The notes under the pieces were generated by a model, which made no database searches, had not been told where the DNA came from, and saw only the letters and a list, made by a program, of their open reading frames with translations. This document shows positions 4,238 through 25,604 of a stretch of DNA of 28,707 nucleotides, piece by piece. Location: positions 1-28,707 of the IMG/VR virus record IMGVR_UViG_3300044638_002366. The stretch is one strand, 5' to 3'. The position numbers were made by a program, and so were the translations under genes. Every line of letters starts with the position of its first letter. Position 1 is the first letter of the stretch. The stretch is from a virus.

Positions 4238-5929
4238 ATGACAACTCGCAAATATTCCTCCACATCCCAAGAGACAAGTCTTACAACAGCCTTGGCTGCT
4301 GGTGCGGGAAATACTACTATGGTGGTGGGTTCCGCAACAGCGTTGCTATCTGGAACTATTCCAGGAAACACTAGCCCGCTAGAAACATTTACTGTTGTTA
4401 TCGATCCAGATACAGCGCTTGAAGAAATTGTTGATGTAACCTATCCTTCGACCCCTGACAGTAATACACTTACAATTGTTCGTGCAGTTGATGGCACTAC
4501 TGCTATTGCTCACTCAGCAGGTGCCAAGGTTCGTCATATGGCTTCTGGCCGTGACTTCCGTGAAGCCAATGCTCACATTGAGGCAACTACTGGACACGGT
4601 GCAACAGGTGCTGTAGTTGGTACAACTAACACTCAGGTTCTTACAAACAAAGACCTTTCATCTGCAACTAATACTCTTTCTACCTCAGTCGTAACTTTAA
4701 CTGGCGCACAGACACTAACAAATAAGAATCTAACTAGCCCAACCATTACTGGTACTGGCGCTATTGCTGGAACCTTTACAGGCAACCTAACAGGTAACGT
4801 AACTGGTAACGTCTCAGGAACTGCAGGTAGTGCAACAGGCAATGCTGGCACAGCAACCGCCTTGGCTACAGCACGTACATTCCAACTTACTGGAGATGTA
4901 GAAGCAAGCGGAGTATCTTTTGATGGTACTGGCAATGTAAGTTTAACAACTGTTATTGGCACTGGTGCAATCGTTAATGCCGATGTGAACTCATCTGCCC
5001 AGATTGCATACAGCAAGTTGGCTTTGACTAACGGCATTGTTAATGCTGACATCAACGCATCTGCTGCTATTGACTGGTCTAAGATTGCTCCATCTAGCAC
5101 GGTATCTGCAACTGAACTTGGATACCTAGATGGCGTCACCTCTGCCATTCAAACTCAGATTGATTCTAAGTTGGCTACTGCAACAGCATCAAGCACATAT
5201 GCGCCTTTGGCTAGCCCAGCACTAACTGGCACACCAACTGCACCTACTGCTACTGCTGGAACTAATACAACACAGGTTGCAACTACAGCATATGTAGGAA
5301 CTGCAATATCTAACCTTGTTGCTGGAGCACCAACTACTCTTGATACTCTTGATGAGATTGCTGCAGCCATTGCTGACACAGGCAACTTCTCAGACACAGT
5401 AGTTCTTAAGTCAGGCTCAACAATGTCTGGCAACCTAGCAATGGGTACTAATAAAGTAACTGGTCTAGGAACTCCTACAACATCTACAGATGCTGCAACT
5501 AAAGGTTATGTAGATACAGTAACAGTTGCGCCTAGCAACTTGACTGGTCCAATTACATCTGTAGGAGCAGCAACAGCAGTGGCAGCACAGACTGGTACTG
5601 GCTCAACATTCGTAATGAATACAAGCCCAACACTTGTAACTCCTGTACTTGGTGTGGCTACTGCTACATCTATCAATGGAACTACAATTCCATCAAGCAA
5701 GACTTTGGTAGCAACTGATTCAACTGCCTATGTAGTTCCTAGCCAAACTGGTAACTCAGGCAAGTACCTCACAACAGATGGAACTACTTCATCTTGGGGT
5801 ACAGTCAATGCGCTGCCATCACAGACAAGCAACGCAGGAAAGTATTTAACAACAGACGGAACCTCAGCATCCTGGGCAACCGTAACAACCGACCCAACAG
5901 CCGACATCTTTATGATGATGGGCGCCTAA
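4238..5929 (+). CDS. Repeat-built tail fibre protein
   Basis: A 563-aa beta-rich protein, almost free of Cys and Trp and full of Thr, Ala, Ser and Gly. A globular head (1-105) carries VDGTTAIAHSAGAKVRHMAS. It is followed by fibre-type repeats: LTNKDLSS and LTNKNLTSPTITGTG, GNLTGNVTGNVSGTAG, NADVNSSAQIAYSKL and NADINASAAIDWSKI, TELGYLDGVTSAIQTQID, then ATKGYVDT. The C-terminus has two copies of PSQT-N-GKYLTTDGT--SW-TV (about 500-550). These modules are typical of trimeric phage fibres. It would attach to the tail or head and contact the host. No chaperone or protease domain is visible, so it may need the six downstream proteins to be completed. Confidence 0.8.
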   Translation: MTTRKYSSTSQETSLTTALAAGAGNTTMVVGSATALLSGTIPGNTSPLETFTVVIDPDTALEEIVDVTYPSTPDSNTLTIVRAVDGTTAIAHSAGAKVRHMASGRDFREANAHIEATTGHGATGAVVGTTNTQVLTNKDLSSATNTLSTSVVTLTGAQTLTNKNLTSPTITGTGAIAGTFTGNLTGNVTGNVSGTAGSATGNAGTATALATARTFQLTGDVEASGVSFDGTGNVSLTTVIGTGAIVNADVNSSAQIAYSKLALTNGIVNADINASAAIDWSKIAPSSTVSATELGYLDGVTSAIQTQIDSKLATATASSTYAPLASPALTGTPTAPTATAGTNTTQVATTAYVGTAISNLVAGAPTTLDTLDEIAAAIADTGNFSDTVVLKSGSTMSGNLAMGTNKVTGLGTPTTSTDAATKGYVDTVTVAPSNLTGPITSVGAATAVAAQTGTGSTFVMNTSPTLVTPVLGVATATSINGTTIPSSKTLVATDSTAYVVPSQTGNSGKYLTTDGTTSSWGTVNALPSQTSNAGKYLTTDGTSASWATVTTDPTADIFMMMGA

Positions 5930-5949: not shown

Positions 5950-6270
5950 ATGGCAAAGAAAGTACTTGGGCAAGTAAACCCATCCGCAACAACAGCAACG
6001 ACACTCTATACAGTTCCATCTGCTAAGAGTGCAGTTATCTCATCACTTACTATCTGTAACCAAGCATCTACATCTGCCACATTCCGTGTGGCTGTACGCC
6101 CTGCTGGTGCAACACTGGCTGCAGTTCACTATGTAGCCTATGATGTAACAGTTGGTGCTGCTGATACTACTGCTCTTACACTTGGTATTACATTAGCAAC
6201 TACAGACGTTGTAACTGTATATGCTTCAACTGCAACAATTTCATTCCACGCATACGGAGATGAGTCTTAA
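5950..6270 (+). CDS. Small beta-sandwich virion protein
   Basis: A 106-aa protein with an AAGGAG site ten bases before ATG. The sequence is a run of short beta strands: TTLYTVPSAKSAVISSLTIC, then ATFRVAVRPAGATL, then DVVTVYASTATISFHAYGDE. This pattern is common among small phage structural proteins found between fibre genes and may form a trimeric knob or fibre-associated subunit. It ends three bases before the six-gene paralogue array. The fold is my reading of the strand pattern. Confidence 0.7.
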   Translation: MAKKVLGQVNPSATTATTLYTVPSAKSAVISSLTICNQASTSATFRVAVRPAGATLAAVHYVAYDVTVGAADTTALTLGITLATTDVVTVYASTATISFHAYGDES

Positions 6271-6273
6271 CAA

Positions 6274-6855
6274 ATGGCTAACTCCCGTATAGCAACTTCG
6301 TCTATTACGCAGGGGTTTCCTAAGAGTAAGTCGTTGCTTACGGGAAATGATGCAATCTATGCTGGCTCGTATGAGTCTATTGCTACTGCTACGGGTACTG
6401 GTTCAAGTGGAACAATAACTTTTTCTAGTATACCAGCAACATATACGCATCTTCAAATTAGATGTCTAATGAAAAATACTAGCAATAGTACCAATCTTTA
6501 CGTAACATTTAATGGAGATAGTACTTCTAATTACAGCGCCCATTATCTTTATACTGATGGACAAACAAGAAGTAGCGCTGCATTAAATGGAGCATATATG
6601 TTTTTAGGACGTTATGCATCTAGTACTGCTGCAAGCGTATATGGCGCAAATGTAATAGATATTTTAGATTACGCTAACACTAATAAATATAAAACAGCAA
6701 AAGGTTTAGGTGGTTACGATACTAATGGTGGTGGAGAAATATTATTTTCAAGTGGAAATTGGCGCTCAACTGCCGCAATAACAAGTATTACATTAAATAC
6801 TGATGCTACCAACTGGACTACTGCGACTACATTTGCTTTGTATGGGATAAAATAA
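6274..6855 (+). CDS. Tandem fibre-tip-like protein A1
   Basis: The first of six related surface proteins (193 aa). Shared family landmarks are TITFSSIP (47-54), TYTHLQIRCLMKN (57-69), AAITSITL (167-174) and the ending LYGIK. Subtype A marks are FNGD--SNYSAHYLY (79-93) and GANVIDILDYANTNKYKT (124-141), which recur in the fourth gene at 7870. The N-terminal 45 residues (SRIATSSITQGFPKSKSLLT) are longer than in subtypes B and C and might anchor the array to the virion. Its stop overlaps the next start (TAATG). Likely a host-contact or fibre-decorating protein. Confidence 0.7.
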   Translation: MANSRIATSSITQGFPKSKSLLTGNDAIYAGSYESIATATGTGSSGTITFSSIPATYTHLQIRCLMKNTSNSTNLYVTFNGDSTSNYSAHYLYTDGQTRSSAALNGAYMFLGRYASSTAASVYGANVIDILDYANTNKYKTAKGLGGYDTNGGGEILFSSGNWRSTAAITSITLNTDATNWTTATTFALYGIK

Positions 6856-7358
6856 TGCCAATTACATATACTCCGATTGCTACTCAGACATTAACAAGCG
6901 CACAAACAACTATTGCTTTTTCATCTATTCCACAAACATATACAGATTTAAGATTAGTTATGCAAATTAAAAATACATTAGGTGTATATTTAACTTATAT
7001 ATATGAACCAACTTTTTCTGCTGGAATCTATAGCGGAACATATATTTTAGGAAATGGAACAACAGCATCAACTGGAAGATATACTGCAGACAGTTATATT
7101 TTGCCTGATAAACCGTATGGTTCCACATCTACTGGTTGGAGTATTTATACTGTTGATTTTAATAATTATAGTAATACTACAACATATAAAACAGCAATTA
7201 GTAGGTCATCAGTTCCAGATTCCGCTAGCGGAAATGTGTATGTAAATGCTGGTCTTATAAGAACTACTTCTGCAATTGCAAATTTAACAATTGCAGCGGG
7301 TGGTGGAAATTATGCAATTGGTTCAACCTTCACCCTCTATGGAATAAAGGCGGCATAA
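6855..7358 (+). CDS. Tandem fibre-tip-like protein B1
   Basis: 167 aa, start overlapping the previous stop by one base. Family landmarks: TIAFSSIPQTYTDLRLVMQI near the N-terminus, a middle DFNNYSNTTTYKTAIS segment, and the ending FTLYGIKAA. Subtype B is shown by the short N-terminus and by the YSNTTTYK motif, both shared with the fifth gene at 8436. The DNA is visibly more AT-rich than in the capsid and large tail genes, with many TTA, ATA and AGA codons. Probable virion surface role by association. Confidence 0.7.
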   Translation: MPITYTPIATQTLTSAQTTIAFSSIPQTYTDLRLVMQIKNTLGVYLTYIYEPTFSAGIYSGTYILGNGTTASTGRYTADSYILPDKPYGSTSTGWSIYTVDFNNYSNTTTYKTAISRSSVPDSASGNVYVNAGLIRTTSAIANLTIAAGGGNYAIGSTFTLYGIKAA

Positions 7359-7870
7359 TGGCATTTACATTTTCTAAACTAGCCAGCGTAGCCGTAGGTT
7401 CTGGTGGCGCTTCAACAATATCATTTAGCAGTATTCCACAAAACTACAAAGACTTGTGTTTAAAAATAAGTGCAAGAACAACAAATGCTTATTTTAGAGA
7501 TTCTGTTGATATAAAATTTAATGGAGCACTTACTTCTGCTGGAACATCTAAAGATATTTTAGCGCAAGGCACTTCAGTTGTTTCACAGTCTTTAAGTAAT
7601 TTATATGTCCAAATTGAAGGCAATAGCGGTACTACTGCTAATATTTTTGGTAACGCTGAAATATACATTCCTAACTATACATCCAGTAACAATAAATCTT
7701 TATCAATTGATGCTGTTACAGAAAATAACGCAGCAGCAGATAATTCTTTGAATTTGTCTCCTGGTCTATGGTCTAACGTAACAGCAATAAGTTCTATACT
7801 GTTATCGGGTGGTGGAACTTTTATGCAGTACTCAACAGCAACTCTCTATGGAATCCGAGCAGAGGTATAA
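7358..7870 (+). CDS. Tandem fibre-tip-like protein C1
   Basis: 170 aa. Family landmarks: VGSGGASTISFSSIPQNYKD, YIPNYTSSNNKS, TENNAAADN, LWSNVTAISSILL and the ending YSTATLYGIRAEV. Nearly every one of these blocks recurs in the sixth gene (8921), so these two are the closest pair by eye. The protein lacks the FNGD and GANV-DILDY marks of subtype A. Junctions on both sides are one-base TAATG overlaps. Likely a virion surface protein. Confidence 0.7.
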   Translation: MAFTFSKLASVAVGSGGASTISFSSIPQNYKDLCLKISARTTNAYFRDSVDIKFNGALTSAGTSKDILAQGTSVVSQSLSNLYVQIEGNSGTTANIFGNAEIYIPNYTSSNNKSLSIDAVTENNAAADNSLNLSPGLWSNVTAISSILLSGGGTFMQYSTATLYGIRAEV

Positions 7871-8436
7871 TGGCTACTACTAAACTATCCGACTCAGGTA
7901 CACTTGGTAATAAGTACGAAAACCTGTCTGCTGACAATAACTATATGGAGACTATTGCCTCCACCCTATTAACAGGCAGTGCGTCTACTGTTACCTTTAG
8001 TAATATTCCACAGGGGTATAAACATCTGCAAGTAAGACACACCGTAAAAGCAAGTCTTGATGACCAAGATGTATGGGTTAACTTTAATGGTGATACTGGT
8101 TCTAACTATTCAGAGCATCGTATTTACGCTAATCAGGCAGCATCAATTGTTTCTGGTGGTGCAACATCAACTTCAAAAATTGAATACTTTGGAAGAACTG
8201 GCGCAGGTACAAATGTTTTTGGGGCAAATGTTGTAGATATACTTGATTACTCTAATCCAAATAAAAATAAAACAATTCGTGGTATGCTTGGTTGGGATAA
8301 TAATTCAAGTGCATTCGTAATGTTTACTTCTGGCGCTTGGTATAATACAGCACCAATTACTTCAATGGTTATCCAACCACAAGGTGGAACATTTTCTCAG
8401 TACTCACGTTTTTCTCTTTACGGAATTAAGGGGTAA
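7870..8436 (+). CDS. Tandem fibre-tip-like protein A2
   Basis: 188 aa. It matches A1 in having a longer N-terminal extension (about 30 residues, including LGNKYENLSADNNYMETIAS), VTFSNIPQGYKHLQVRHTVK, NFNGDTGSNYSEHRIY (71-86), FGANVVDILDYSNPNKNKT (117-135) and the ending FSLYGIKG. This places it as the second copy of subtype A, restarting the A-B-C order. Probable receptor-contact or fibre-decoration role shared with the array. Confidence 0.7.
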   Translation: MATTKLSDSGTLGNKYENLSADNNYMETIASTLLTGSASTVTFSNIPQGYKHLQVRHTVKASLDDQDVWVNFNGDTGSNYSEHRIYANQAASIVSGGATSTSKIEYFGRTGAGTNVFGANVVDILDYSNPNKNKTIRGMLGWDNNSSAFVMFTSGAWYNTAPITSMVIQPQGGTFSQYSRFSLYGIKG

Positions 8437-8921
8437 TGATGGCAAAGACGGCAACGTATTCATTAATTCAAAGTCAAACAACAAGTGGGTCTTCAACAAC
8501 AGTAATTACTTTTAGTTCTATACCACAAACTTTTACAGATTTAGTTTTAGTTGTAAATGGTGCTGCTGTTTCAGGTGGACCAGATTTAAAGTATACTTTT
8601 AATTCTGATACTGGAAGTAATTATGCAAGAATTGCTTTTTACGGTTCAGGTTCTGCTGCTTTTGTAGCAAGAGACGTAAATCAAACTGGCACTAATACTG
8701 GTTACCTAGGAACATCAAATACAACAAACATCCTTAATGTGCCTGATTATTCAAACACAACAACATACAAAAATATAGTTGGAAGAATAGGTGGTGGCAA
8801 TGCCTATTTAGGAACTTGGCGCTCTACTGCTGCAATTTCAAGCATTACATTAACTATTGTTAGTTCGTCATATGCAAGTGGTTGTACATTTAAACTCTAC
8901 GGAATAGAGGCATACAAGTAA
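8436..8921 (+). CDS. Tandem fibre-tip-like protein B2
   Basis: 161 aa. Two adjacent ATG codons (8436 and 8439) follow the previous gene; the first overlaps its stop. Shared marks: ITFSSIPQTFTDLVLVV, FNSDTGSNYARIAFYG, VPDYSNTTTYKNIVGRIG, TWRSTAAISSITLTIV and the ending FKLYGIEAYK. The IPQT-TDL-LV and DYSNTTTYK blocks match B1; FNSDTGSNY also echoes subtype A, suggesting some exchange between copies. Confidence 0.7.
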   Translation: MMAKTATYSLIQSQTTSGSSTTVITFSSIPQTFTDLVLVVNGAAVSGGPDLKYTFNSDTGSNYARIAFYGSGSAAFVARDVNQTGTNTGYLGTSNTTNILNVPDYSNTTTYKNIVGRIGGGNAYLGTWRSTAAISSITLTIVSSSYASGCTFKLYGIEAYK

Positions 8922-9442
8922 TGGCTCTTCAATTATTTAAAATTGCTACCGTAACTGTAGGTTCAGCAGGAGCATCAACTATTGACTTTACTTCTATCCC
9001 ACAAGGATACACCGACTTAATGTTGGCTTACTCTGTAAGAGTATCTCGTTCTGGAACAACTTTTACTCAATTAGGTATAAGAATAAATGCAGCAAGCACT
9101 AACTATTCTACTACAACACTTTCGGGAAATGGTTCAACGGTAACATCATCTAGCAATACTACTGGATACTTTGCCTACGAGTCATCATCAATGAATTCTA
9201 GTAATAGTACTGCAAACACTTTTAGTAGTGGAAATTTATATATTCCTAATTATACAAGCAGTAATTATAAGTCAGCATTAGTTGATTTTGTAACAGAAAA
9301 TAATGCTACAGCATCAAATGTTGTACTTAGTGCTGCTTTATGGTCTAATACGTCTGCTGTAACTTCTATTACATTAAATGAACCAAATAGTAATTCAAAC
9401 TTTGACCAATACAGCACGGCAACACTCTACGGTATCCTTTAG
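8921..9442 (+). CDS. Tandem fibre-tip-like protein C2
   Basis: 173 aa, last of the array. Marks shared with C1: VGSAGASTIDFTSIPQGYTD, LYIPNYTSSNYKSALVDFVT, ENNATASN, ALWSNTSAVTSITL and DQYSTATLYGIL. Between about residues 60 and 105 it carries a Ser/Thr/Asn-rich stretch with no counterpart in C1, which may be the variable, exposed part. It stops 12 bases before a gene with its own ribosome site, so the translationally coupled array ends here. Confidence 0.7.
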   Translation: MALQLFKIATVTVGSAGASTIDFTSIPQGYTDLMLAYSVRVSRSGTTFTQLGIRINAASTNYSTTTLSGNGSTVTSSSNTTGYFAYESSSMNSSNSTANTFSSGNLYIPNYTSSNYKSALVDFVTENNATASNVVLSAALWSNTSAVTSITLNEPNSNSNFDQYSTATLYGIL

Positions 9443-9454
9443 AAAGGGAGACAA

Positions 9455-9685
9455 ATGACAACACCAACAGCAATTGAAGTAAACTGCGAGACAGGCGAAG
9501 TTACAGAACGCCCATTAACTGCAGAAGAAATCGCTCAGCGCGAAGCAGATGCAGCAGCATTTACAGCAGAGCAAGCAGCAAAAGAAGCAGAAGCAGCAGC
9601 AGTGGCTACAGCCAAGGCATCTGCAGAAGCAAAGTTAGCAGCACTAGGTTTGTCTGCTGACGAAATTGCAGCACTATCTAAGTAA
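9455..9685 (+). CDS. Ala/Glu-rich helical small tail-region protein
   Basis: 76 aa, preceded by AAAGGGAG. It starts with a short strand (TAIEVNCETGEVTERPLTAE), followed by one long Ala/Glu helix (EEIAQREADAAAFTAEQAAK onward) and ends LAALGLSADEIAALSK. Proteins with this E-N-ETGEV--RPLT-EE start and a LGL--DEI-AL ending are frequent next to phage tail-fibre genes, often unannotated, and may be fibre assembly helpers. The helix probably forms a coiled coil. Stop overlaps a 29-aa gene (TAATG). Confidence 0.7.
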   Translation: MTTPTAIEVNCETGEVTERPLTAEEIAQREADAAAFTAEQAAKEAEAAAVATAKASAEAKLAALGLSADEIAALSK

Positions 9686-9774
9686 TGTGTAAGGAATGTG
9701 GCAGTTGCAGTAAAGAACACAACTACGATGCACTAGCAGAAGTAGACTTTGTAGAAGCAAGTATATTTATTTAA
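9685..9774 (+). CDS. 29-aa CxxCxxC micro-protein
   Basis: A short reading frame, MCKECGSCSKEHNYDALAEV and nine more residues, starts in the preceding stop (TAATG) and fills the gap up to the ribosome site (AAGGAG) of the next gene. Cys 2, 5 and 8 give a CxxCxxC cluster with His 12 nearby, enough for one zinc or Fe-S site. Exact packing and residue choice suggest it is translated, but length alone makes this uncertain. No function known. Confidence 0.5.
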   Translation: MCKECGSCSKEHNYDALAEVDFVEASIFI

Positions 9775-9782
9775 GGAGCAAC

Positions 9783-11993
9783 GTGGCATCACCAGATATT
9801 ACGGACAATATACCGTTAAACATCGGTAACCCTGGAGTCTCAGGTTTCTGGACCAATAACGCCGAAGATTACGACGTTGCCATTGGTGGAGAACCTTTCT
9901 TCATGGCTCCTACAGATCAAACTCCATATCAACGTGAGACTGCTCCTTATAGAAAAGAACAGTTTGACAACGGTGCAGAACCAGGTGAACAGTCATTAAC
10001 TGGCTGGTGGATCCGTTCACAGTCATCCTTCCACAATGGTAGTGGCATTAAGTTCTATGACCCTTCATCTGGTGAGGCAAGTAAGTATCGTTTTACTGAC
10101 TCACAGGGTGTAAACGTCTGGACTAAGGGTGAAGTATCACTACTTAAAGATGTGACAAGTACACACGTGACTACTGGACCAGTTACTGGCACAGATCACC
10201 AACATCCTAGTCAACATGTCCGTTCTATCCAGTGGTCTGGTATTAACGGTGTATTACTACATGATGAATACGATGTTGATAAAGTTTATCCAGCAATTAC
10301 TGTATCTATTACTAATAAGGCTTTGACTTCAAACGTGGCAACACTTACCACATCTGCAGCACACGGTCTGTCTACTGGTTTAGAAATAACAATTACTGGC
10401 GTAGATGCTACCTTTAACGGCACCTATACAATTACTGGCGCACCCACTACAACAACTTTTACATACGCCAAGGTAGCAAGTGATGTACCTTCTGCTGCAG
10501 TATCTCCAGTTGGTACTGGCGTAACTGACCCAGTAATTCACTTTATTGATTACAATAGCGGTAGTGCAGAGCCTGTTTATGCTATCTGTGATGATGGCGT
10601 ATACGCCTATTGGGTAACTAATGCTGTGGCTGGTGGAGCCAATAAAATCCACATGTACAAGAAGTTGTTGACCGACAACACAACAACTATCCCATCACCT
10701 ATGTTTACTGCAACTGGTGTTGTTATTACCTATGCTGCCATGGAGTTTGTCAAAGACCGTATTATCCTATGTGTTAATAACTCTGTTTATGAATTAGCAC
10801 CTACTGCTACATCGCTTCCAACAGCAACCTATACCAACCCCAACACAAACTATCATTACACATCTGTCTCTGCCTCTGGCGCTGCTATCTATACTGCTGG
10901 TCACTCTGGCATTTACTCCACAGTACAGAAGTACATACTAACAACTGGCGGAGCAATACAGGTATTGACTCAGGCAATAGTTGCAGCAGAGTTTCCTCCT
11001 GGCGAAATAGTCGAGAAGTTGTACTACTACCTAGGTTACATGATGATCGGAACCTCTAAAGGTATGCGAGTTTCTGTGGTTAATGATCAAGATGGTTCTA
11101 TCTCATATGGACCACTCATTGTTGAAACCGCACAACCAGTATATGACTTTGCTGCCCGTGACCGTTTCGTATGGTGTGCATCAGGAATTGGTTCACTGGA
11201 TGCAGGACTTATTCGTATTGACTTAGGTCAAGGTATCGAAGGTGAGCAGTTACGCTTTGCTTATGCAAATGATTTACAGTTTGCTCAGACTGCAGAGCAC
11301 TACACCACTGGTGTGGCATTCCTTGGAACAACCAATAGACTTGCTTTCTGCACTGCTTATGAGGTTACAGACGGAGCCATCTACTTAGAGTCAGCAACAG
11401 TACTGAAATCTTCTGGATACGTAACTACTGGTGGTATCCGCTATGGAACACTAGAGCCTAAGAACTATAAGTTCATTCGTGCTCGTGGTGACTTTTCTTT
11501 TGGTGCTATGGATATCTTCTCATTAGATCCATCTAACAATACTTTTACAATTATTACATACAACGCTGGAGTAGGAAGCCCAGAGGCTGCCACAACAAGC
11601 CCACAGGGACCACAGGAGTTCCTCTCCTATAAGTTTACGCTCTCACGTAGCGCAAGCGATACCAGTAAAGGACCCGTATTTAAGGGTTATCAAACAAAGG
11701 CTCTACCTGCCACAGAGCGCCAACGAGTGATTCAGTTCCCTGTATGGTGCTTCGACGTAGAAACCGACAGAAACAATGTTAAAACTGGATATGAAGGCCG
11801 TGCGTGGGAGCGTATTCAAAACCTTGAACAGATTGAAAAGTTAGGTGACATCGTTAACGTACAAGACTTCACTACAGGTGAGCGAGTACAGGCAGTCATT
11901 GAACGAATTAACTTCTCTCGCAAAACACCTCCATCAGGAAACTTCAATGGATTCGGTGGTCTTCTTGTTATTACAGTCAGGACTGTCTTATAA
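9783..11993 (+). CDS. Large beta-rich tail protein (nozzle or minor tail)
   Basis: A 736-aa protein starting with GTG after AAGGAG. The N-terminal region has PYQRETAPYRKEQFDNGAEP and GEQSLTGWWIRSQSSF (about 48-83) followed by a jelly-roll-like segment. An Ig-like insertion (about 170-245; SNVATLTTSAAHGLSTGLEI, then FNGTYTIT) is a widespread phage surface module. The remainder is a series of strands that may form a propeller, and the C-terminus reads VIERINFSRKTPPSGNFNGF. Similar starts occur in actinophage minor tail proteins; in podoviruses a protein of this size often forms the tail nozzle. Which applies is unclear. Confidence 0.7.
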   Translation: MASPDITDNIPLNIGNPGVSGFWTNNAEDYDVAIGGEPFFMAPTDQTPYQRETAPYRKEQFDNGAEPGEQSLTGWWIRSQSSFHNGSGIKFYDPSSGEASKYRFTDSQGVNVWTKGEVSLLKDVTSTHVTTGPVTGTDHQHPSQHVRSIQWSGINGVLLHDEYDVDKVYPAITVSITNKALTSNVATLTTSAAHGLSTGLEITITGVDATFNGTYTITGAPTTTTFTYAKVASDVPSAAVSPVGTGVTDPVIHFIDYNSGSAEPVYAICDDGVYAYWVTNAVAGGANKIHMYKKLLTDNTTTIPSPMFTATGVVITYAAMEFVKDRIILCVNNSVYELAPTATSLPTATYTNPNTNYHYTSVSASGAAIYTAGHSGIYSTVQKYILTTGGAIQVLTQAIVAAEFPPGEIVEKLYYYLGYMMIGTSKGMRVSVVNDQDGSISYGPLIVETAQPVYDFAARDRFVWCASGIGSLDAGLIRIDLGQGIEGEQLRFAYANDLQFAQTAEHYTTGVAFLGTTNRLAFCTAYEVTDGAIYLESATVLKSSGYVTTGGIRYGTLEPKNYKFIRARGDFSFGAMDIFSLDPSNNTFTIITYNAGVGSPEAATTSPQGPQEFLSYKFTLSRSASDTSKGPVFKGYQTKALPATERQRVIQFPVWCFDVETDRNNVKTGYEGRAWERIQNLEQIEKLGDIVNVQDFTTGERVQAVIERINFSRKTPPSGNFNGFGGLLVITVRTVL

Positions 11994-12190
11994 TGAGCGC
12001 AACAGATTGGGCTGGAATAGCCGTAGCAGTAGCAACTATCGTGGCAAGTTTTGCAGGTGCAGTTCGATGGATGGTTAAACATTATCTTGAGGAATTGAAA
12101 CCAAACGGGGGCGGATCCGTTAAAGACCAAGTCAATAGATTGGAAGCCCGCGTTGACCAAATCTACATCCTCCTTTGTGAGAAAGAGTAG
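11993..12190 (+). CDS. Small membrane protein with coiled-coil tail
   Basis: 65 aa. One membrane segment (about 5-27, WAGIAVAVATIVASFAGAVR) is followed by a charged helix with heptad pattern (SVKDQVNRLEARVDQIYILL). This layout is seen in small phage proteins of the DUF2746 or XhlA type near lysis genes. It overlaps the tail gene stop (TAATG) and is overlapped itself by the next gene. Either a lysis accessory or a membrane-tethered tail component. Confidence 0.65.
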   Translation: MSATDWAGIAVAVATIVASFAGAVRWMVKHYLEELKPNGGGSVKDQVNRLEARVDQIYILLCEKE

Positions 12191-13409
12191 AAACCTTTTA
12201 GCAGTTTGCTTTATTGCATTTAACTTTTTATTCCTTGTTGCCCCTGCATATGGGGAAGAAGTAACCTCAGAAGTAACTACCATTGTTACCCCTGGTGGCG
12301 ATGATGTTTCTTATCAGATACCACTGACAGTTTCAGTTGTCTATGATGGTGTTACATACGAAAATGTCTATGCAACTACCAACTCAGTAATTACCTTTGG
12401 TAGACCAGATGGAACATATTGGACATATCCAACTACACCATCAGTATCTATCGAGTCTAAAGACTGGTGGGTGCTACCACAGCAGATGCCAGATACTCAC
12501 TTCATCATCAATGTAAGTGAAGGTGGCTTTCAGGTAGATGGTAACTATCGTCCATACGGTACTTTTACTGGCGATACAACTAGTATTATTATTACTGCAC
12601 AGATTCAAACAGATGGAACTGTTGCATATAGTTATGCAGTAGATGGTCCACTAGCAGGTAATGAAAGAACTGGTGCAGTACTTACTGATGGAACTGTCGT
12701 TCCTTTATCAGAAGTAAACATCATTGAGGTTGAAGAGGCACCAGTTCTAGAACCTGAACCAGTTCCTCCAACACCTGAACCTGTTCCAGAACCAGAGCCA
12801 ACTCCAGAGCCTGAGCCAGAACCTCAACCAGAGCCAGCACCTGAACCTGCTCCGCAACCAAGACCTATCCCAATCTTTGAACCACCTGCACCTGAGCCAC
12901 CTGCCGAAGAACCTCCAGCACCAGTAGAGGAACCGCCAGCAGAAGAGCCACCTGCGGATGAACCGCCAGTTCCAGTAGAAGAGCCTCCTACTCCTGTAGA
13001 AGAACCACCTACTGAAGCAGAGGAACCTCCTGTTGAAGCAGAACCTGCACCAGAGGAAGCACCAGAACCTCCAGCAGAACCAGAGGTAGTGCAGGCAGAA
13101 GATGTAGAAGCATCTGAACTACCAGCCGATACTCCAATCGAATTGGAGAACGGTGTAGTTCTTACTGCTGGTGTAGTCGCAGCACTTGAATTGTTTGACA
13201 ACCCAACAGAATTATTAACAGAAATATTTACAAATCCTGCTCAGGTATTAACAGCATTATCTAATATTGGTGCCGATATGTCTGAGGAAGAAAGAAAAGA
13301 ATCAACTGAAACTATCTTGGCAGCAGTGATCGTGGGACAAATCGCAACACAGTCAGCAGTAGCAGCAGCAGCATCCGCAGCCTCAACCACGTATAGGAGA
13401 AAACCTTAA
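12153..13409 (+). CDS. Secreted Pro/Glu-rich protein with N-terminal beta-domain
   Basis: Up to 418 aa. A signal peptide is clear: basic KSRN, hydrophobic LLAVCFIAFNFLFLVAPAYG and a likely cut before EE (about 34-35). The mature part has a beta-domain (about 41-185; VYDGVTYENVYATTNSVITF, then WWVLPQQMP), then a long Pro/Glu repeat stretch (about 195-315) and a helical C-terminus ending AVAAAASAASTTYRRKP. No lipid or sorting motif is seen. The start could be TTG 12153 (GGAAG six bases before it) or GTG 12177; both keep the signal peptide. The Pro/Glu arm could span the thick actinobacterial envelope. It sits just before holin-like and endolysin genes. Function is unknown to me. Confidence 0.7.
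   Translation: MTKSTSSFVRKSRNLLAVCFIAFNFLFLVAPAYGEEVTSEVTTIVTPGGDDVSYQIPLTVSVVYDGVTYENVYATTNSVITFGRPDGTYWTYPTTPSVSIESKDWWVLPQQMPDTHFIINVSEGGFQVDGNYRPYGTFTGDTTSIIITAQIQTDGTVAYSYAVDGPLAGNERTGAVLTDGTVVPLSEVNIIEVEEAPVLEPEPVPPTPEPVPEPEPTPEPEPEPQPEPAPEPAPQPRPIPIFEPPAPEPPAEEPPAPVEEPPAEEPPADEPPVPVEEPPTPVEEPPTEAEEPPVEAEPAPEEAPEPPAEPEVVQAEDVEASELPADTPIELENGVVLTAGVVAALELFDNPTELLTEIFTNPAQVLTALSNIGADMSEEERKESTETILAAVIVGQIATQSAVAAAASAASTTYRRKP
12736..13085 (+). repeat. Degenerate Pro/Glu codon repeats
   Basis: Imperfect repeats of CCAGAGCCTGAACC-type hexamers encode PEPEP, PPAEEPPA and PVEEPPT blocks in the secreted protein. Synonymous changes between copies show the repeat has been kept at the protein level. 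Such tracts change length readily by slippage. Confidence 0.7.
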
Positions 13410-13579
13410 TGAAGCAATGGTTCTCAGACATCCTGAACCAAGCATGGACCCTACTAGGCATGTTCGTAGCATGGGTAGTTTTAGATGGTTCAGCAAAGAC
13501 AGTAGTGGGCTACGCAATTGTAGTCACATCAGTGCTATGGGCGGTTTCGTACAAAGCACGTAACCCTAAGGACGAATAA
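13409..13579 (+). CDS. 56-aa two-helix membrane protein, holin-like
   Basis: This gene starts in the preceding stop (TAATG) and its stop overlaps the next start. The peptide begins MKQWFSDILNQAWTLLGMFV and has two hydrophobic segments (about 12-25 and 31-47, the second TVVGYAIVVTSVLWAVSYKA), with a short GSAK turn and a charged end (RNPKDE). Size, two helices and position before the endolysin fit a class II holin or anti-holin. The neighbour at 13579 is also membrane-active, so the pair may act together. Confidence 0.65.
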   Translation: MKQWFSDILNQAWTLLGMFVAWVVLDGSAKTVVGYAIVVTSVLWAVSYKARNPKDE

Positions 13580-13821
13580 TGGACACACTAAAAAGCGTAA
13601 TGATGCGAATTCTTGCAGTTATTGCAGCAGAATCACTAGGCGTAATTGGTGCTGGTTCCCTCGTAGGTATCGAAGTGTGGCAAGCAGGAGTTCTTGCTGG
13701 TGCACTTGGTGCTATGAAGGTAATCGAAGCACTTGCACGCTTCTATCTAGCAGATGGAAATCTATCAGCAGAAGAAATCAACGAGGCATTTGCCAAAGTA
13801 GATAAGAAGGTTGCTGAATAA
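13579..13821 (+). CDS. 80-aa membrane protein, candidate holin
   Basis: Starts in the preceding stop. Residues 7-50 contain two small-residue-rich hydrophobic helices (RILAVIAAESLGVIGAGSLV and WQAGVLAGALGAMKVIEALA) followed by an amphipathic charged tail (NLSAEEINEAFAKVDKKVAE). This fits small actinophage holins, which form lesions to release the endolysin. Another holin-like protein follows the endolysin at 14554, so the assignment of the main holin is open. Confidence 0.6.
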   Translation: MDTLKSVMMRILAVIAAESLGVIGAGSLVGIEVWQAGVLAGALGAMKVIEALARFYLADGNLSAEEINEAFAKVDKKVAE

Positions 13822-14033
13822 TGACAATTGAAATCGTAATTGTTGCAGTAGTCATACTTAGTATTATTGCAATTGGATATGTTTTAGACCTTCAAAGAGG
13901 TGGTCTTAAGTTAAAGACTAAAGACGCAGATGGTGATGGATGGATTCAAGAAGGAACCAAATTTGAACGTCAAGTAAATCCAGTTAAAAAGACAGCAAAG
14001 AAATCAACACCTCGCAAGAAAGCAGGAAACTAA
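13821..14033 (+). CDS. Membrane-anchored peptide with EF-hand-like loop
   Basis: 70 aa. An N-terminal hydrophobic helix (EIVIVAVVILSIIAIGYVLD) is followed by KDADGDGWIQEGT (about 34-46), which has the D-D-DG----E spacing of a calcium-binding EF-hand loop, and then a Lys-rich tail (KKTAKKSTPRKKAGN). It overlaps both neighbours by one base. Calcium binding is inferred only from the loop; a lone loop without its second helix may bind weakly. Role in lysis or virion stability unknown. Confidence 0.65.
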   Translation: MTIEIVIVAVVILSIIAIGYVLDLQRGGLKLKTKDADGDGWIQEGTKFERQVNPVKKTAKKSTPRKKAGN

Positions 14034-14545
14034 TGGGCCAAAGATTAGACTTCATTGAAGTAGCCAAGTCACAACTTGGTGTCATCGAAGGACCAAAGGA
14101 CAATGAAACCAAGTACGGTGCTTTCACAAAGGCTAATTTTTTGCCTTGGTGTGGGTCATTCGTTAACTGGTGTGCCAATGAAGTTGGCTTGAAGATTCCT
14201 AACTGTGTATCTACAGCCAATGGAGCATCAGCCTTTATGAAGAAAGACCAATGGGAGAAGGCAAGCGATGATGCTCAGCCACTTCCAGGGGACATCGTAT
14301 TCTTTGACTTCCCTAACGATGGTGTAGATCGAATCTCACATATCGGTATTGTAGTCAAGGATAACGGAGATGGAACAGTTACCTGCGTTGAGGGTAACAC
14401 CGCTCCTGATAAGAAGGGCGACCAACGTAATGGTGGACAAGTCTGCCTCAAGGTTCGCGCTTTTAAGAAGAAGAACGGATCTAAACTCCGTAAATCACAG
14501 GCTGTGACTGTCGTAGGATTCGGCAAGCCAGCCTTTAAGTCCTAA
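14033..14545 (+). CDS. CHAP-domain endolysin
   Basis: 170 aa, forming a single papain-like CHAP domain with the expected catalytic set: Cys40 in PWCGSFVNWCA, His103 in SHIGIVV and an acidic residue Glu120 in EGNT. The surrounding PLPGDIVFFDF is also typical. CHAP enzymes cut peptidoglycan peptide bonds (amidase or endopeptidase); which bond cannot be read here. No signal peptide is seen, so it needs a holin, in line with the small membrane proteins on both sides. It has no separate wall-binding domain, and the final 25 residues are basic (KKKNGSKLRKS), which might aid wall contact. Confidence 0.85.
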   Translation: MGQRLDFIEVAKSQLGVIEGPKDNETKYGAFTKANFLPWCGSFVNWCANEVGLKIPNCVSTANGASAFMKKDQWEKASDDAQPLPGDIVFFDFPNDGVDRISHIGIVVKDNGDGTVTCVEGNTAPDKKGDQRNGGQVCLKVRAFKKKNGSKLRKSQAVTVVGFGKPAFKS

Positions 14546-14553
14546 GGAGAACT

Positions 14554-14748
14554 ATGTTCGACAAAACAAAACTTCAATCAATCGCATTTTCATATCTTCG
14601 CGCCGCAGCAGCCGCTGCAATTGCGCTATATACTGCTGGACAGCATGACCCAAAGGTCCTTGCTACTGCATTCCTCGCAGGTCTCATTGGACCTGTTTTG
14701 AAGGCACTAGACTCTTCAGCACCAGAGTTTGGACGTGGCTCTAAGTAG
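14554..14748 (+). CDS. 64-aa holin-like membrane protein
   Basis: Preceded by TAAGGAGAACT and ATG. Hydrophobic segments are AFSYLRAAAAAAIALYTAG (about 11-29) and KVLATAFLAGLIGPVLKAL (about 34-52), with a short GQHDP turn and polar end. Length, two helices and position immediately after the endolysin fit a phage holin. It is the last gene of the rightward structural-lysis block, just ahead of a strong terminator. Confidence 0.65.
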   Translation: MFDKTKLQSIAFSYLRAAAAAAIALYTAGQHDPKVLATAFLAGLIGPVLKALDSSAPEFGRGSK

Positions 14749-14784
14749 GGTTTTAACCCTCTAGGAGCCCCGTAGAGACGAGAG

Positions 14785-14827
14785 CACCCCTTACCTGAGT
14801 AGAAATACTAGGGTAGGGGGTGTTTTT
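14785..14827 (+). terminator. Strong intrinsic terminator of the structural-lysis block
   Basis: CACCCCTTACCT pairs with AGGGTAGGGGGTG and the stem continues as AGTA-GAAA-TACT, giving about 16 pairs (one bulged G, one mismatch, G-U pairs) closed by a GAAA loop and followed by five T. It lies 37 bases after the last plus-strand gene and before a leftward pair, as expected for a block end. Confidence 0.85.
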
Positions 14828-14828
14828 G

Positions 14829-14961
14829 TCATTTATCGGTGGCTCTACGATGCCTCAAACAAGCCCGAAAACTCAGGGTTTGGGACGTTTTCAGCCCGTC
14901 CGAGGGGTAATGTATGGGTCGGAGGTACTTTTGGCTCCAACTCAGGGTGCTTTTACTTCTG
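14829..14961. other. Intergenic region, no gene seen
   Basis: No start with a ribosome site and no tRNA fold was found. The 10-bp AACTCAGGGT occurs twice (14870-14879 and 14939-14948), and GGACG with CGTCC can form a short hairpin near 14882-14901. It is downstream of the leftward pair and could include its weak terminator, but no T run supports that. Confidence 0.4.
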
Positions 14962-15138
14962 TTAACCGCCTGTACTGTAGAATCCAGGAGCATTAAACTT
15001 AACCGCAGGTGTAGTGTACACCCTGCGTAGTGTACTAGTACACACCGTACACACGTACACACCCTCTTCTTCATCTATTGGACGGGTAATAATGATGATC
15101 TTCCCGTCTCCAGGGCATTCGTATTCATAAGTTGCCAT
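14962..15138 (-). CDS. FmdB-type zinc-ribbon protein
   Basis: 58 aa on the minus strand. The start MATYEYEC, the CTVC pair (Cys30 and Cys33), and the ending RRVYTTPAVKFNAPGFYST match the FmdB zinc-ribbon family, which normally carries two CxxC pairs. The first pair is degenerate here: CPGDG keeps only one Cys (Cys8), so metal binding may be altered. FmdB members are small putative regulators of unknown mechanism. The start overlaps the stop of the 40-aa gene upstream (TAATG), so both are read from one leftward message. Confidence 0.75.
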   Translation of the reverse strand: MATYEYECPGDGKIIIITRPIDEEEGVYVCTVCTSTLRRVYTTPAVKFNAPGFYSTGG

Positions 15139-15260
15139 TACATGTCATCCCAACATATCTCGCATATTCCATTTGGTCCAAGAAATACTAGGGTTTCAGT
15201 TCCTACTGTGTCACCACAGCGGTCACATAAGGATACGTAATCTTCATCATAAGTTGTCAT
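15138..15260 (-). CDS. 40-aa zinc-ribbon protein, leaderless start
   Basis: The product MTTYDEDYVSLCDRCGDTVG and twenty further residues carries two pairs, CDRC (12, 15) and CEIC (34, 37), spaced as in a zinc ribbon. I chose ATG 15260 because an extended -10 box lies six bases upstream, which places the transcript start at or beside the ATG; upstream in-frame codons would be outside the message. It overlaps the FmdB-like gene by one base. Unknown function; small regulators of this type often act on transcription. Confidence 0.7.
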   Translation of the reverse strand: MTTYDEDYVSLCDRCGDTVGTETLVFLGPNGICEICWDDM

Positions 15261-15266
15261 GCACAG

Positions 15267-15275
15267 ATAGTAGCA
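15267..15275 (-). promoter_or_regulatory. Extended -10 promoter of the leftward pair
   Basis: On the minus strand TGC-TACTAT is an extended -10 (TGn plus a four-of-six match to TATAAT). Six bases separate it from the ATG at 15260, so initiation would fall on or next to the start codon, giving leaderless mRNA. No convincing -35 box is seen, which an extended -10 does not need. Confidence 0.55.
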
Positions 15276-15393
15276 CATGTGGTAGAGTTTCAGTGCGGGT
15301 AACCGTGGGGCGGAAACTTCAAATGACGGATGACGGCAGTCAGCCTGATCGCTCCCCTGAACCACCATGAATTTTTATGGGGGGTAGGGGGGC

Positions 15394-15432
15394 GTTTCTT
15401 AAAATCTGGAATCAGGCAGCGTTTTAAGAAAC
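15394..15432. repeat. 11-bp perfect inverted repeat, operator candidate
   Basis: GTTTCTTAAAA (15394-15404) and TTTTAAGAAAC (15422-15432) are exact complements separated by 17 bases. The right arm ends about 20 bases before the -10 box at 15453, where -35 contacts would be. A repressor dimer or tetramer could act here. As RNA it could also form a hairpin, but it has no T run. The adjacent upstream DNA has G runs (GGGGGGTAGGGGGG). Confidence 0.5.
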
Positions 15433-15449
15433 CCGTTGTCGGTGTCGTA

Positions 15450-15458
15450 TGGTATAGT
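15450..15458 (+). promoter_or_regulatory. Extended -10 promoter of the replication block
   Basis: TGG-TATAGT is an extended -10, six bases before ATG 15465, the same spacing as on the opposite strand at 15267. The transcript should be leaderless. No -35 match lies at normal distance. Confidence 0.55.
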
Positions 15459-15464
15459 TCTCCT

Positions 15465-15557
15465 ATGACTAAATTACTTTGTTTGATATGTAGATCGCCT
15501 TTAGTAATGACTAAGGCTGGGTTTCAATGCTCCAATAAGGAGTGCGATGATGAATAA
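15465..15557 (+). CDS. 30-aa zinc-ribbon micro-protein
   Basis: MTKLLCLICRSPLVMTKAGF then QCSNKECDDE. CLIC (6, 9) and C-NKEC (22, 27) could form a small zinc site. The ATG follows the extended -10 by six bases; the longer upstream frame would not be transcribed. The downstream nuclease start lies within its last 11 bases, with a ribosome site (AAGGAG, 15537-15542) inside this gene, so translation is likely coupled. Could also serve mainly as a leader cistron. Confidence 0.55.
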   Translation: MTKLLCLICRSPLVMTKAGFQCSNKECDDE

Positions 15558-16290
15558 ATTACCTGAACATATATCGTACTCATCATTTACAACTTGGCAG
15601 GATTGCGGTTGGAAATATAAATTAACTAAAGTAGATCAAGTGCCAGAAGGTCATGCCGTCTGGTTTACTGGTGGTACTGCAGTTCACAAAGCCACAGAAT
15701 TATACGACCTTGAAGGTGGCAAATCCGAAGACATTTGGAACAAGGTCTGGTTTGAGCAGGTCAAAGAAGATGAAGAACTCAATGGCGACATGAGCACTTG
15801 GAAGTATGCCAAACGTGAGGACATGTCTTGGTGGTACGGAGAAGGCATCTGGATGCTAGATCGCTGGATTAAATTCCGTGAGCAGTGGGGCATCTATGAA
15901 GATTTTATTGAGAAGCAGTACGAAATACCTCTTGAAGATACTGTAGTCAAGATGGCTATTGATAGAGTGATGACTGATATGGATGGCAAGCGTGTTCTTG
16001 TCGACATCAAGACTGGAGCATCTGCTCAGCGTCATCCTCTGCAGTTGGCTATCTATGCTTGGGCTCTTTCTAAAGAAGGTATAATTGTCGACAAAGCAGG
16101 ATTCTGGGATGCTCGATCAGGGCACATCAGTCTCTGGTCGCTTAACAACCTAACATCTGATAGGATAGAAGAGATACTCAACACCTTTGATAAGGCTAGG
16201 AAGGCAGAAATGTTTATACCTAATCTTAAACAGTGTGGATATTGTGATGTCTCACATCACTGTAAATTCGTAAATTCTAGAGCAGAATAG
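15547..16290 (+). CDS. PD-(D/E)XK exonuclease with Fe-S cluster, Cas4/RecB-like
   Basis: 247 aa. The conserved elements of the RecB-nuclease fold are all visible: His47 in GTAVHKATE, Asp139 in AIDR, Asp153-Ile-Lys155 in LVDIKTG, and Gln166-L-A-I-Tyr170. Four cysteines, Cys20 near the N-terminus and Cys230, Cys233 and Cys239 at the C-terminus, match the 4Fe-4S staple of AddB, Cas4 and related enzymes. It would degrade or resect DNA ends in replication or recombination. Its position before a RecA/DnaB-type ATPase supports this. Two ATGs (15547, 15550) are possible; the second has better spacing. No CRISPR array is in the window, so a spacer-acquisition role has no support. Confidence 0.8.
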   Translation: MMNKLPEHISYSSFTTWQDCGWKYKLTKVDQVPEGHAVWFTGGTAVHKATELYDLEGGKSEDIWNKVWFEQVKEDEELNGDMSTWKYAKREDMSWWYGEGIWMLDRWIKFREQWGIYEDFIEKQYEIPLEDTVVKMAIDRVMTDMDGKRVLVDIKTGASAQRHPLQLAIYAWALSKEGIIVDKAGFWDARSGHISLWSLNNLTSDRIEEILNTFDKARKAEMFIPNLKQCGYCDVSHHCKFVNSRAE

Positions 16291-16298
16291 GAATAAAA

Positions 16299-16721
16299 AT
16301 GCCTGGTAACTTTCAAGTAAGTAGTAAACTACCTGATGGTCGTATCTTCGTGGTAGCAGGGGAAACATACACAGACTTCTGTGCAGCCCTTGAAAACGCA
16401 GTCGGAATCGAAGAGTCTCAAGATGTACTCAAGGTTATGGCTCAGTCACTTGTAGGGGCTCCAACAAGTCCAGTACAAGCCGTGTCTAATGTTCGTGATG
16501 CATTTCCAAATGCACAAGTCGACCATACTGCACATCCGACACAAACATCTAGCATTGCACCACAAGGACGTTCATGCGTTCACGGTGGAATGACTAAGCG
16601 CCAAGGTAACGGTGCTAAGGGTCCATGGAAGGGTTACATGTGTCCAACACCAAAGGGAACAGCAGATCAATGTGATCCAGTATTTATCCGTCGTAATGAT
16701 GCAGAATGGAACACATTCTAA
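16299..16721 (+). CDS. Replication-region protein with C-terminal zinc-ribbon
   Basis: 140 aa. The N-terminal half looks like a small beta-alpha domain (VSSKLPDGRIFVVAGETYTD). A Pro/Thr-rich linker follows (about 72-92), then a C-terminal module with GRSCVHGGMTKRQGNGAKGP, WKGYMCPTPKG and DQCDPVF (about 93-130), carrying three Cys and one His for zinc. The C-terminal module recurs in actinophage replication proteins as I remember them. Position between an exonuclease and an ATPase makes single-stranded DNA binding possible. A weak AGGA lies before the ATG. Confidence 0.65.
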   Translation: MPGNFQVSSKLPDGRIFVVAGETYTDFCAALENAVGIEESQDVLKVMAQSLVGAPTSPVQAVSNVRDAFPNAQVDHTAHPTQTSSIAPQGRSCVHGGMTKRQGNGAKGPWKGYMCPTPKGTADQCDPVFIRRNDAEWNTF

Positions 16722-17510
16722 ATGAGAACATTAGCCCGTGCCGTAGGTACTAAAGACATCGGTGGCGAACCATTGCCATCAGTCTTTCGTACATTTGATA
16801 TTAATAAAGTCATCTTCCGTAGGTCAGAAGTATCGATGATTGCTGGCACTCCTGGTGCTGGTAAGTCGACGCTTGCTCTTGCGGTTGCGTTACGGTCTAA
16901 AGTTCCAACACTGTACGTATCAGCAGATACAAATGCCCATACAATGGCTATGCGTCTGCTATCAATGATTACTGGCAAACCTCAGAGTGACGCTGAAATG
17001 TTACTCAATGATGATGTTGCTGGTAGTCGACAAACTATCAATGATTCCTCGGGGCATATCTTCTGGTCATTTGAGTCAGCACCAACGCTGTCAGATCTTG
17101 ACCAAGAGGTACAAGCATTCGAGGAATTGTGGGGTTGCTCGCCGACTCTCATTGTTATCGATAACCTTATGGATATTGCTAATGATGGTGGGGAAGAGTT
17201 TGCGAGTATGCGCTCCACAATTAAGGAACTCAAGTACTTGGCTAGGGATACCAATGCTTGCGTTCTTGTACTGCACCATACAAAGGAATCATACGTTGGG
17301 TCACCATGTCAACCGAGGTCAGCCCTCCAAGGCATGGTGGCACAACTTCCTGCTTTAATCTGTACAGTTGGAACAGATGCTCCTGGCTTTATTGCAGTAG
17401 CACCTGTGAAGAACCGTTATGGTAAAGCAGATCCGACAGGCGCAACAGCGTTTTGGTTGCAGTTTAACCCTGAGATAATGGATGTCTCAGATATACCTGA
17501 AAGGGTGTAA
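16722..17510 (+). CDS. RecA/DnaB-type ATPase, replication helicase or loader
   Basis: 262 aa, starting on the base after the previous stop. Walker A is AGTPGAGKST (41-50), Walker B LIVIDNL (143-149), and a HHTKES motif (185-190) matches the nucleotide-sensing loop of DnaB and RepA-type helicases. Arg199 in RSALQG and KNRYG (230-234) match later DnaB or KaiC motifs. With no N-terminal DnaB domain it corresponds to the bare RecA core, like RepA of AAA_25 type. It should power DNA unwinding or protein loading at the phage fork. The primase lies 1.8 kb downstream in the same block. Confidence 0.75.
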   Translation: MRTLARAVGTKDIGGEPLPSVFRTFDINKVIFRRSEVSMIAGTPGAGKSTLALAVALRSKVPTLYVSADTNAHTMAMRLLSMITGKPQSDAEMLLNDDVAGSRQTINDSSGHIFWSFESAPTLSDLDQEVQAFEELWGCSPTLIVIDNLMDIANDGGEEFASMRSTIKELKYLARDTNACVLVLHHTKESYVGSPCQPRSALQGMVAQLPALICTVGTDAPGFIAVAPVKNRYGKADPTGATAFWLQFNPEIMDVSDIPERV

Positions 17511-17511
17511 T

Positions 17512-17604
17512 ATGTCTACTATCATTCCACTTCCCGATTGGGGAAGCCCGACTCAACCTCAGCCAGACTGGTACGAGGATGAAGAAGATGATGATGACGA
17601 GTAA
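17512..17604 (+). CDS. 30-aa acidic micro-protein
   Basis: MSTIIPLPDWGSPTQPQPDW then YEDEEDDDDE. Half Pro/Trp-rich and half acidic. Preceded by AAAGGG at suitable spacing, starting one base after the ATPase stop, and overlapped by the next gene in another frame. Acidic tails with an aromatic end are used by single-stranded DNA-binding proteins to recruit partners, and this could be such a peptide on its own, or a DNA mimic. Coding is supported by composition and packing only. Confidence 0.45.
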   Translation: MSTIIPLPDWGSPTQPQPDWYEDEEDDDDE

Positions 17605-17800: not shown

Positions 17801-17802
17801 TA

Positions 17803-25603: not shown

Positions 25604-25604
25604 C

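Follow-up and report, generated by a model that had tools for sequence, protein, structure and literature searches.

We analysed a 28,707-nt stretch of viral DNA (IMG/VR record IMGVR_UViG_3300044638_002366, positions 1 to 28,707; hereafter the window) from a freshwater phage, whose tail-fibre locus holds a cassette of head genes flanked by a fibre gene upstream and a conserved gene downstream. Six + strand open reading frames (ORFs), each ATG-initiated, span 6274-9442 in A-B-C-A-B-C order; A, B and C denote three classes of related proteins, and one A-B-C set is referred to as a triad. The genes are as follows (lengths in amino acids, aa; classes from the tree and from hidden Markov models, HMMs):

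6274..6855, + strand: triad 1 class A head, 193 aa, with an N-terminal extension carrying an L-x-x-G-N docking-like motif
6855..7358, + strand: triad 1 class B head, 167 aa
7358..7870, + strand: triad 1 class C head, 170 aa
7870..8436, + strand: triad 2 class A head, 188 aa, with an N-terminal extension lacking L-x-x-G-N
8436..8921, + strand: triad 2 class B head, 161 aa
8921..9442, + strand: triad 2 class C head, 173 aa, predicted to fold as a 12-strand beta sandwich

The initial annotation of this DNA had described the six genes as fibre-tip-like and probably concerned with host recognition, an interpretation that we uphold. The one-base overlaps that it reported between neighbours are present as TAATG stop/start sequences at 5/5 junctions, and the AT-richness relative to the flanks is likewise real (GC content of 32-39% over 6601-9600 and 44-45% immediately outside). 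Its list of shared motifs, however, holds only in part: L-Y-G-I, near the C terminus, and the F, I, P and L of F-SIP--Y--L are invariant in all six proteins, whereas 'DL' ('HL' in the A proteins) and the variable 'AITSITL' are not. No convincing Pfam or PHROG family match was obtained for the six proteins, and a PHROG scan of 25 C proteins gave a weak match in one only. The region recurs, 99.99% identical over 9,951 nt, on another contig (L006).

Three gene classes at the cassette

Raw identity alone was insufficient to pair the six genes, because in a six-row alignment A1 is nearly equal in identity to A2 (39%) and to B2 (40%). In a tree of 112 family proteins, A, B and C formed three supported groups (Shimodaira-Hasegawa-like approximate likelihood ratio test, SH-aLRT, 98, 95 and 97), with genes 1 and 4 in class A, 2 and 5 in class B and 3 and 6 in class C, as had been proposed from subtype motifs; no grouping of neighbouring genes was obtained, and the earlier description of a duplicated three-gene block is borne out. 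The three classes remained single groups when a sister lineage with B-A-C gene order was added (SH-aLRT 99, 91 and 95). In another tree, to which eleven lone or remote heads were added, a single branch set off each class from the other labelled rows (supports of 53, 86 and 99 for A, B and C), and the remote head L103, on a long branch, adjoined A. From these trees we conclude that the classes had become fixed by the time the sampled phages diverged.

A rule of three across related arrays

Relatives were gathered with single C and A proteins, a conserved 736-aa downstream gene, alignments of C, A and B and two outlying proteins as seeds, and class A was also used as a seed against genome contigs. 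Of the 478 relatives that the 736-aa gene had in viral contigs the best 80 were kept, and the C, A and B alignments contributed the best 80 of at least 583, 578 and 562 confirmed relatives, respectively, in 2.9 million viral contigs. ORFs of the collected loci were classified with one HMM per class, the classes being set initially by place modulo three in 19 loci and by hand in L021; the 112-protein tree was built independently of this assignment. The 273 loci gathered with all seeds but the two outlying proteins fell into 224 groups with 227 arrays, 210 of which were strong (every member ≥100 bits). Arrays were called bounded where at least 600 nt of sequence lay on each side, a definition that does not prove a gene boundary.

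Equal numbers of A, B and C were found in 153/153 bounded strong arrays, which consisted of 136 ABC, 11 ABCABC, 5 ABCABCABC and 1 BACABC and had a smallest class margin of 27 bits. The other 57 strong arrays comprised 37 made of whole triads and 20 partial ones, and a contig end lay close by on the side of the missing gene in 20/20 of the latter. Scans seeded with C revealed A and B upstream, and scans seeded with A revealed B and C downstream. On these counts, expansion by single genes is rejected. They also speak against the single hetero-hexameric tip suggested by the initial annotation: with one triad in 136/153 bounded strong arrays, a heterotrimer per triad is indicated instead.

The single BACABC array led to the B-A-C sister lineage, which provided 8 further distinct contigs (from a set of 10 new loci with two pairs alike, L332 being the same contig as L328; L328/L332, L333-L342), arranged as B-A-C in 5 and as B-A-(C fused to A)-B-C in 3. 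Class margins of some first genes in this lineage were only about 8-15 bits, and the tree was used to decide. Because class numbers were equal in 8/8 of these contigs, composition is preserved despite the change of order, and by these assignments one of each class is kept even where gene order differs.

Seventeen weak arrays (a member <100 bits) were excluded from the main count: lone heads (L023, L026, L029, L044, L045, L053 and L056), ABC with an additional weak B-like gene (L166), a distant B-like gene (L162), a double-counted C (L276), truncated arrays (L210, L293 and L046) and remote relatives (L103, L104, L259 and L260). Gaps of some 340-620 nt were seen within or between otherwise regular triads (L019 1369-1848; L033 1836-2459), and gaps of this size lay between A and B in L113/L115, L145, L192, L207 and L256.

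Duplication by whole triads

In the 112-protein tree, the three proteins of a given triad agree in type, several inner supports being only 80-92. Nine-gene phages carry the triad types in the order alpha, beta, gamma; six-gene phages, including that of the window, carry beta and then alpha, that is, in swapped block order compared with the nine-gene phages. Separate duplications occurred in L021 and L206, with two A proteins as sisters (support of 96, and 90 in the tree with lone heads). The agreement of type within triads, together with these separate duplications, indicates that triads duplicate and move as units. Both triad types are present in other phages, which rules out a recent duplication in the phage of the window; on the tree evidence the duplication is ancient and its unit is the whole triad. 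The initial annotation had envisaged an expandable cassette whose copies may let the phage track changing receptors; neither a recent expansion in this phage nor a series of independent specificities is sustained, growth having been found in whole triads only.

Long N termini and added domains

The residues before the first head motif had a median of 45 in first A proteins (n = 174) and 43 in later A proteins (n = 24), and of 21 in B (n = 204) and 22 in C (n = 206). In the B-A-C lineage it was B that had an N terminus of 32-47 residues (9/9), and A had only 18-22 (5/5 examined). Judged from these lengths, a long N terminus follows first place in the triad and not class.

A motif of the form L[LIVMF]xGN was present near the N terminus in 13/194 first A proteins, 0/25 later A proteins and 0/230 C proteins; it was found in 2/232 B proteins, both times inside the head, and in 13/2,286 other ORFs, 9 of which belong to the 83 that are glycine-rich. 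One of the 13 motif-bearing first A proteins resembles a chance match, giving 12 or 13 of 194. Within loci that contain the 736-aa gene, 6/22 first A proteins carry L-x-x-G-N. The motif also starts glycine-rich adhesin-like proteins of the same loci, for example both in the Planktophila phage LanE43-AprE7 (E7), and on this distribution it is one of several N-terminal types and not a general rule.

Additional domains occur behind some heads. In L041, B and C carry PF21722 (Gly_rich_2) domains (E 3e-21 and 5e-21), a likeness to glycine-rich tail-fibre adhesins, a kind that includes the polyglycine-rich S16 adhesin; the six proteins of the window differ in being without PF21722. Proteins longer than 300 aa were found in bounded arrays without fusions for 12/169 B, 21/169 C and 3/169 A. 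In L021 and L182, C is fused to the next A via a stretch with weak fn3 similarity, below the Pfam cut-off; fusions of C to A are seen again in the B-A-C lineage.

Predicted fold and covariation between subunits

AlphaFold2 predicted a 12-strand beta sandwich for the second C protein of the window (predicted local distance difference test, pLDDT, 83; predicted template modelling score, pTM, 0.80). Viral models resembled it with TM scores up to 0.84, some of them named as Stf repeats, collagen, fn3 or glycine-rich, so that the predicted head fold agrees with other viral fibre heads. In the comparison with solved structures Z reached 8.1 at best, and scores within about 1 of each other were obtained for legume lectins, C1q-like heads, C-terminal domains of fructofuranosidases and a TNF-like lectin; C1QL2 (Z 7.6; 3.1 Å over 108 residues) and the TNF-like lectin (Z 7.2) were tied with the fructofuranosidase domains and legume lectins. 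These comparisons support a lectin- or C1q-like beta sandwich and no more than that; a head of this kind is the prediction for each protein of the cassette. Searches by sequence for solved relatives found none for B and C at E up to 1 and one chance-like match for A (E 0.37). Foldseek against the Protein Data Bank returned nothing at E up to 0.001 with a single head, and the 33 rows at E up to 0.001 obtained with a three-in-one model were disregarded, all having TM <0.25.

For L031, whose triad is in frame, a single chain translated through the stops (modelled as glycine) gave a mean pLDDT of 74.5 and a pTM of 0.72, with no control. Only one alignment for such one-chain A-B-C models (A7; 4 triads plus 17 A-B pairs) stayed in register, so the C part of the model rests on 4 rows; alignments mixing in single proteins or B-C pairs had rows in the wrong register and were dropped. 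By our estimate, three loosely tied beads would score well under pTM 0.72. For the C1q head, a tandem single chain has been reported to yield the correct heterotrimer (PMC4774423).

Covariation was compared over 216 triads, in which the strongest inter-protein pairs were A26-B3, A26-C4 and B9-C166, with B3-C4 equalling B9-C166. Because the tested pairs were chosen after inspection, only the comparison of maxima and the count of positional coincidences were used. Pairs of N-terminal positions accounted for 3 (AB), 2 (BC) and 3 (AC) of the top 5, where the expected fraction is about 0.0025. The maxima compared with the highest shuffle were 0.242 vs 0.234 for AB, 0.268 vs 0.247 for AC and 0.239 vs 0.242 for BC, with shuffles made within blocks of neighbours that were just a little closer to one another than rows in general (median distance 0.49 vs 0.55). 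A cluster-based control was dropped, as the clusters were too uneven (one with 163/216 rows). The covariation fits an arrangement in which N-terminal strands would meet on the axis of an assembly.

Cassette exchange and the probable host

The cassette is flanked by the following genes:

4238..5929, + strand: tail-fibre gene, 563 aa, 5' of the cassette; PHROG tail fiber families, best E 4e-21 (phrog_454)
5950..6270, + strand: small fibre-associated gene, 106 aa; phrog_1276, E 9e-9, and phrog_693 tail fiber, E 4e-7
9455..9685, + strand: 76-aa Ala/Glu-rich gene that closes the cassette; homology with the 98%-identical phage L022 starts at its end
9783..11993, + strand: 736-aa gene, phrog_11667 (unknown function), E 2e-147; conserved, used as census anchor

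The 106-aa gene probably encodes a connector; in related phages its relatives lie 5' of triads and 5' of other adhesin genes. Phage L022 is 98.3% identical to the window over 8,609 nt (window 9683-18291, L022 961-9569), and the 961 nt upstream have only a 93-nt piece in common with the fibre gene of the window. A sharp replacement boundary therefore lies at the end of the 76-aa gene, the fibre region of L022 being otherwise unrelated. In L023, which has 89.7% identity from 9565 onward, a lone head stands in place of the two triads.

The phage of the window is most likely an actinophage, because it encodes a WhiB-like protein (23467-23805, - strand; PF02467, 41.2 bits, over the Pfam cut-off) and a sigma-70 region-4 protein (22093-22809, + strand), and because the closest named relatives found are the Planktophila phages E7 and AprF5 (F5). 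These two phages were isolated on a freshwater 'Ca. Nanopelagicales' actinobacterium and carry whiB and a sigma factor, according to the available part of their description (Kavagutti et al., 2023; PMC10202952). An ABC triad was also observed at L258 7917-9483, on a contig of an uncultured actinobacterium assembly that would be a prophage or a co-binned phage contig.

E7 and F5 have one triad in a 5-kb variable fibre island. According to its authors, the island takes in two collagen-like genes, 'three proteins encoding DUF2541' and a portion of the fibre gene, and it may have to do with recognition of the host (Kavagutti et al., 2023; PMC10202952). Judged by position and order, those three proteins correspond to A, B and C in L102. 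The domain label was not reproduced in our Pfam searches: DUF2541, which we take to be PF10807, gave no match for the A, B and C of E7 at E up to 10 and none for the six proteins of the window at E up to 1, although very weak ones may be lost to HMMER filters.

Discussion

We propose, and consider it probable, that the three proteins of an A-B-C triad form one heterotrimeric head, which would sit at the tip of the tail fibre and bind the receptor. The heterotrimer is favoured because it best explains the one-of-each composition, the duplication in blocks and the fact that one subunit in each triad is extended. Also in its favour are the docking-like motif that some first A proteins share with glycine-rich adhesins of their loci, the glycine-rich domains gained by B or C, the pTM of the one-chain model, the N-terminal covariation in all three pairs, the exchange of the cassette and the variability reported for the island of E7 and F5. 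In this model three paralogues with a beta-sandwich fold, established early as separate classes, would come together 1:1:1 about a pseudo-threefold axis. The leading subunit (A in the window) would plug the head into the fibre or connector by some 20-25 extra N-terminal residues, and B and C, without this extension, would join via their head domains. Host contact would be made by the outer surfaces or, in some relatives, by the glycine-rich domains behind B and C. Extra triads would supply further, different heads on the same virion, perhaps in series, as suggested by the occasional fusion of the C of one triad to the A of the next. Of this picture, the three classes, their one-of-each composition, the duplication by blocks, the extended N terminus of the first gene and the replacement of the cassette are read directly from sequences; the fold is a prediction, and the heterotrimer, the docking role, receptor binding and the serial arrangement are inferred.

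Several observations weigh against this proposal. Lone relatives of the head exist, so such a head can function without two partners, and close operon linkage might hold three genes together for other reasons. The docking-like motif is present in a small minority of first A proteins (13/194). The similarity to solved structures may be no more than a common arrangement would give, and the one-chain model crosses stops, tethers the chains, has 4 rows for C and is without a negative control. For covariation, the BC maximum (0.239) is below the best shuffle (0.242), and lineage effects could contribute.

A bolder version would see in a large freshwater phage group a C1q-like system of obligate heterotrimeric heads, stacked first subunit into preceding C, up to three per virion (nine binding surfaces) and traded as three-gene blocks; we hold this version tentatively, at somewhat below an even chance.

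The strongest competitor, although unlikely in our view, is that A, B and C form three separate homotrimers (AAA, BBB and CCC), all of them required, for instance as successive beads of one fibre or as heads of three kinds of fibre. Fibre tips are normally homotrimers, related phages have lone heads with an N-terminal part of their own at the same locus, and B and C can each bear a glycine-rich domain. Yet B and C lack the extension of the first gene, which shifts to B where B leads; corresponding positions near the N terminus covary between all three classes, within the limits set by BC and by lineage; and the one-chain triad packs with a pTM of 0.72, again with no control. A structural or decorative role apart from receptor binding, for instance as a fibre collar or cap carrying other adhesins, would suit the strong conservation of class-specific residues and the two glycine-rich proteins beside the triad of E7, which could be the true adhesins. 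We regard it as improbable, since the triad lies in the variable island of E7 and F5 that its authors, in the available text, link to host recognition (PMC10202952), the whole cassette is swapped in near relatives and, as a weak point, the predicted fold resembles lectin-like sandwiches. Least credible is an array of independent receptor specificities, tandem-duplicated to follow changing receptors: copy numbers of 3, 6 or 9 and the swapping of the locus between near relatives would be accommodated, but independent units would come and go singly, against which stand the equal class numbers in 153/153 bounded strong arrays and 8/8 further contigs, and the triad types are old.

The nearest precedents for a heterotrimeric triad lie outside tailed phages. 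The virophage DSLV2 has three consecutive paralogous fibre-tip genes in the same orientation, as in the window, for which a heterotrimeric tripartite tail with 1:1:1 composition, based on AlphaFold3 and co-expression, and receptor binding were described (Chu et al., 2025; PMC12724248). Its proteins differ in having a PF07484 collar domain and resembling T4 gp37, and the available portion of that report mentions no multiplication of the triad, unlike in the phage group of the window (PMC12724248). PF07484 gave no match in the six proteins of the window at E up to 1. In the globular head of C1q, three paralogous beta-sandwich heads (chains A, B and C) form one heterotrimeric recognition unit (PMC4774423). 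Some of the weak structural matches of the second C model are C1q-like chains; the six proteins gave no Pfam match to C1q, and A, B and C proteins differ in being without a collagen stalk. The resemblance is best taken as an analogy of working, not membership. For E7 and F5, the available text gives the triad proteins a domain label only and says nothing of a heterotrimer, of multiplied triads or of three classes with one member each (Kavagutti et al., 2023; PMC10202952). We found no account of the rule of three in tailed phages in the open-licence literature, subscription journals being mostly outside the search. Fibre-tip heads are an ordinary kind of gene; their constitution here is unusual and very regular.

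Phage fibre tips are usually treated as homotrimers, and host-range prediction seeks one receptor-binding protein. If the heterotrimer is the rule, the host-range unit would be a three-gene set whose changes must stay compatible, and homotrimer modelling of a single protein would yield wrong tips. Present annotation misses the family almost entirely, because the three triad proteins of E7, like the six of the window, have no convincing Pfam or PHROG family, and because C and B queries match only the two Planktophila phages among 50,697 phage records. The viral contigs nonetheless hold at least 562 confirmed relatives per class alignment.

Other genes of the window

Outside the fibre locus, the window encodes a PD-(D/E)XK nuclease with Cas4-like similarity (15547-16290, + strand; PF12705 E 7e-17, PF01930 E 3e-6). 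Two adjoining genes (24791-25639 and 25605-27221, both - strand) show similarity to a class-II glutamine amidotransferase (PF13230, E 2e-6) and an amidoligase (PF12224, E 1e-5), respectively, and possibly form a peptide or cell-wall amide-forming pair.

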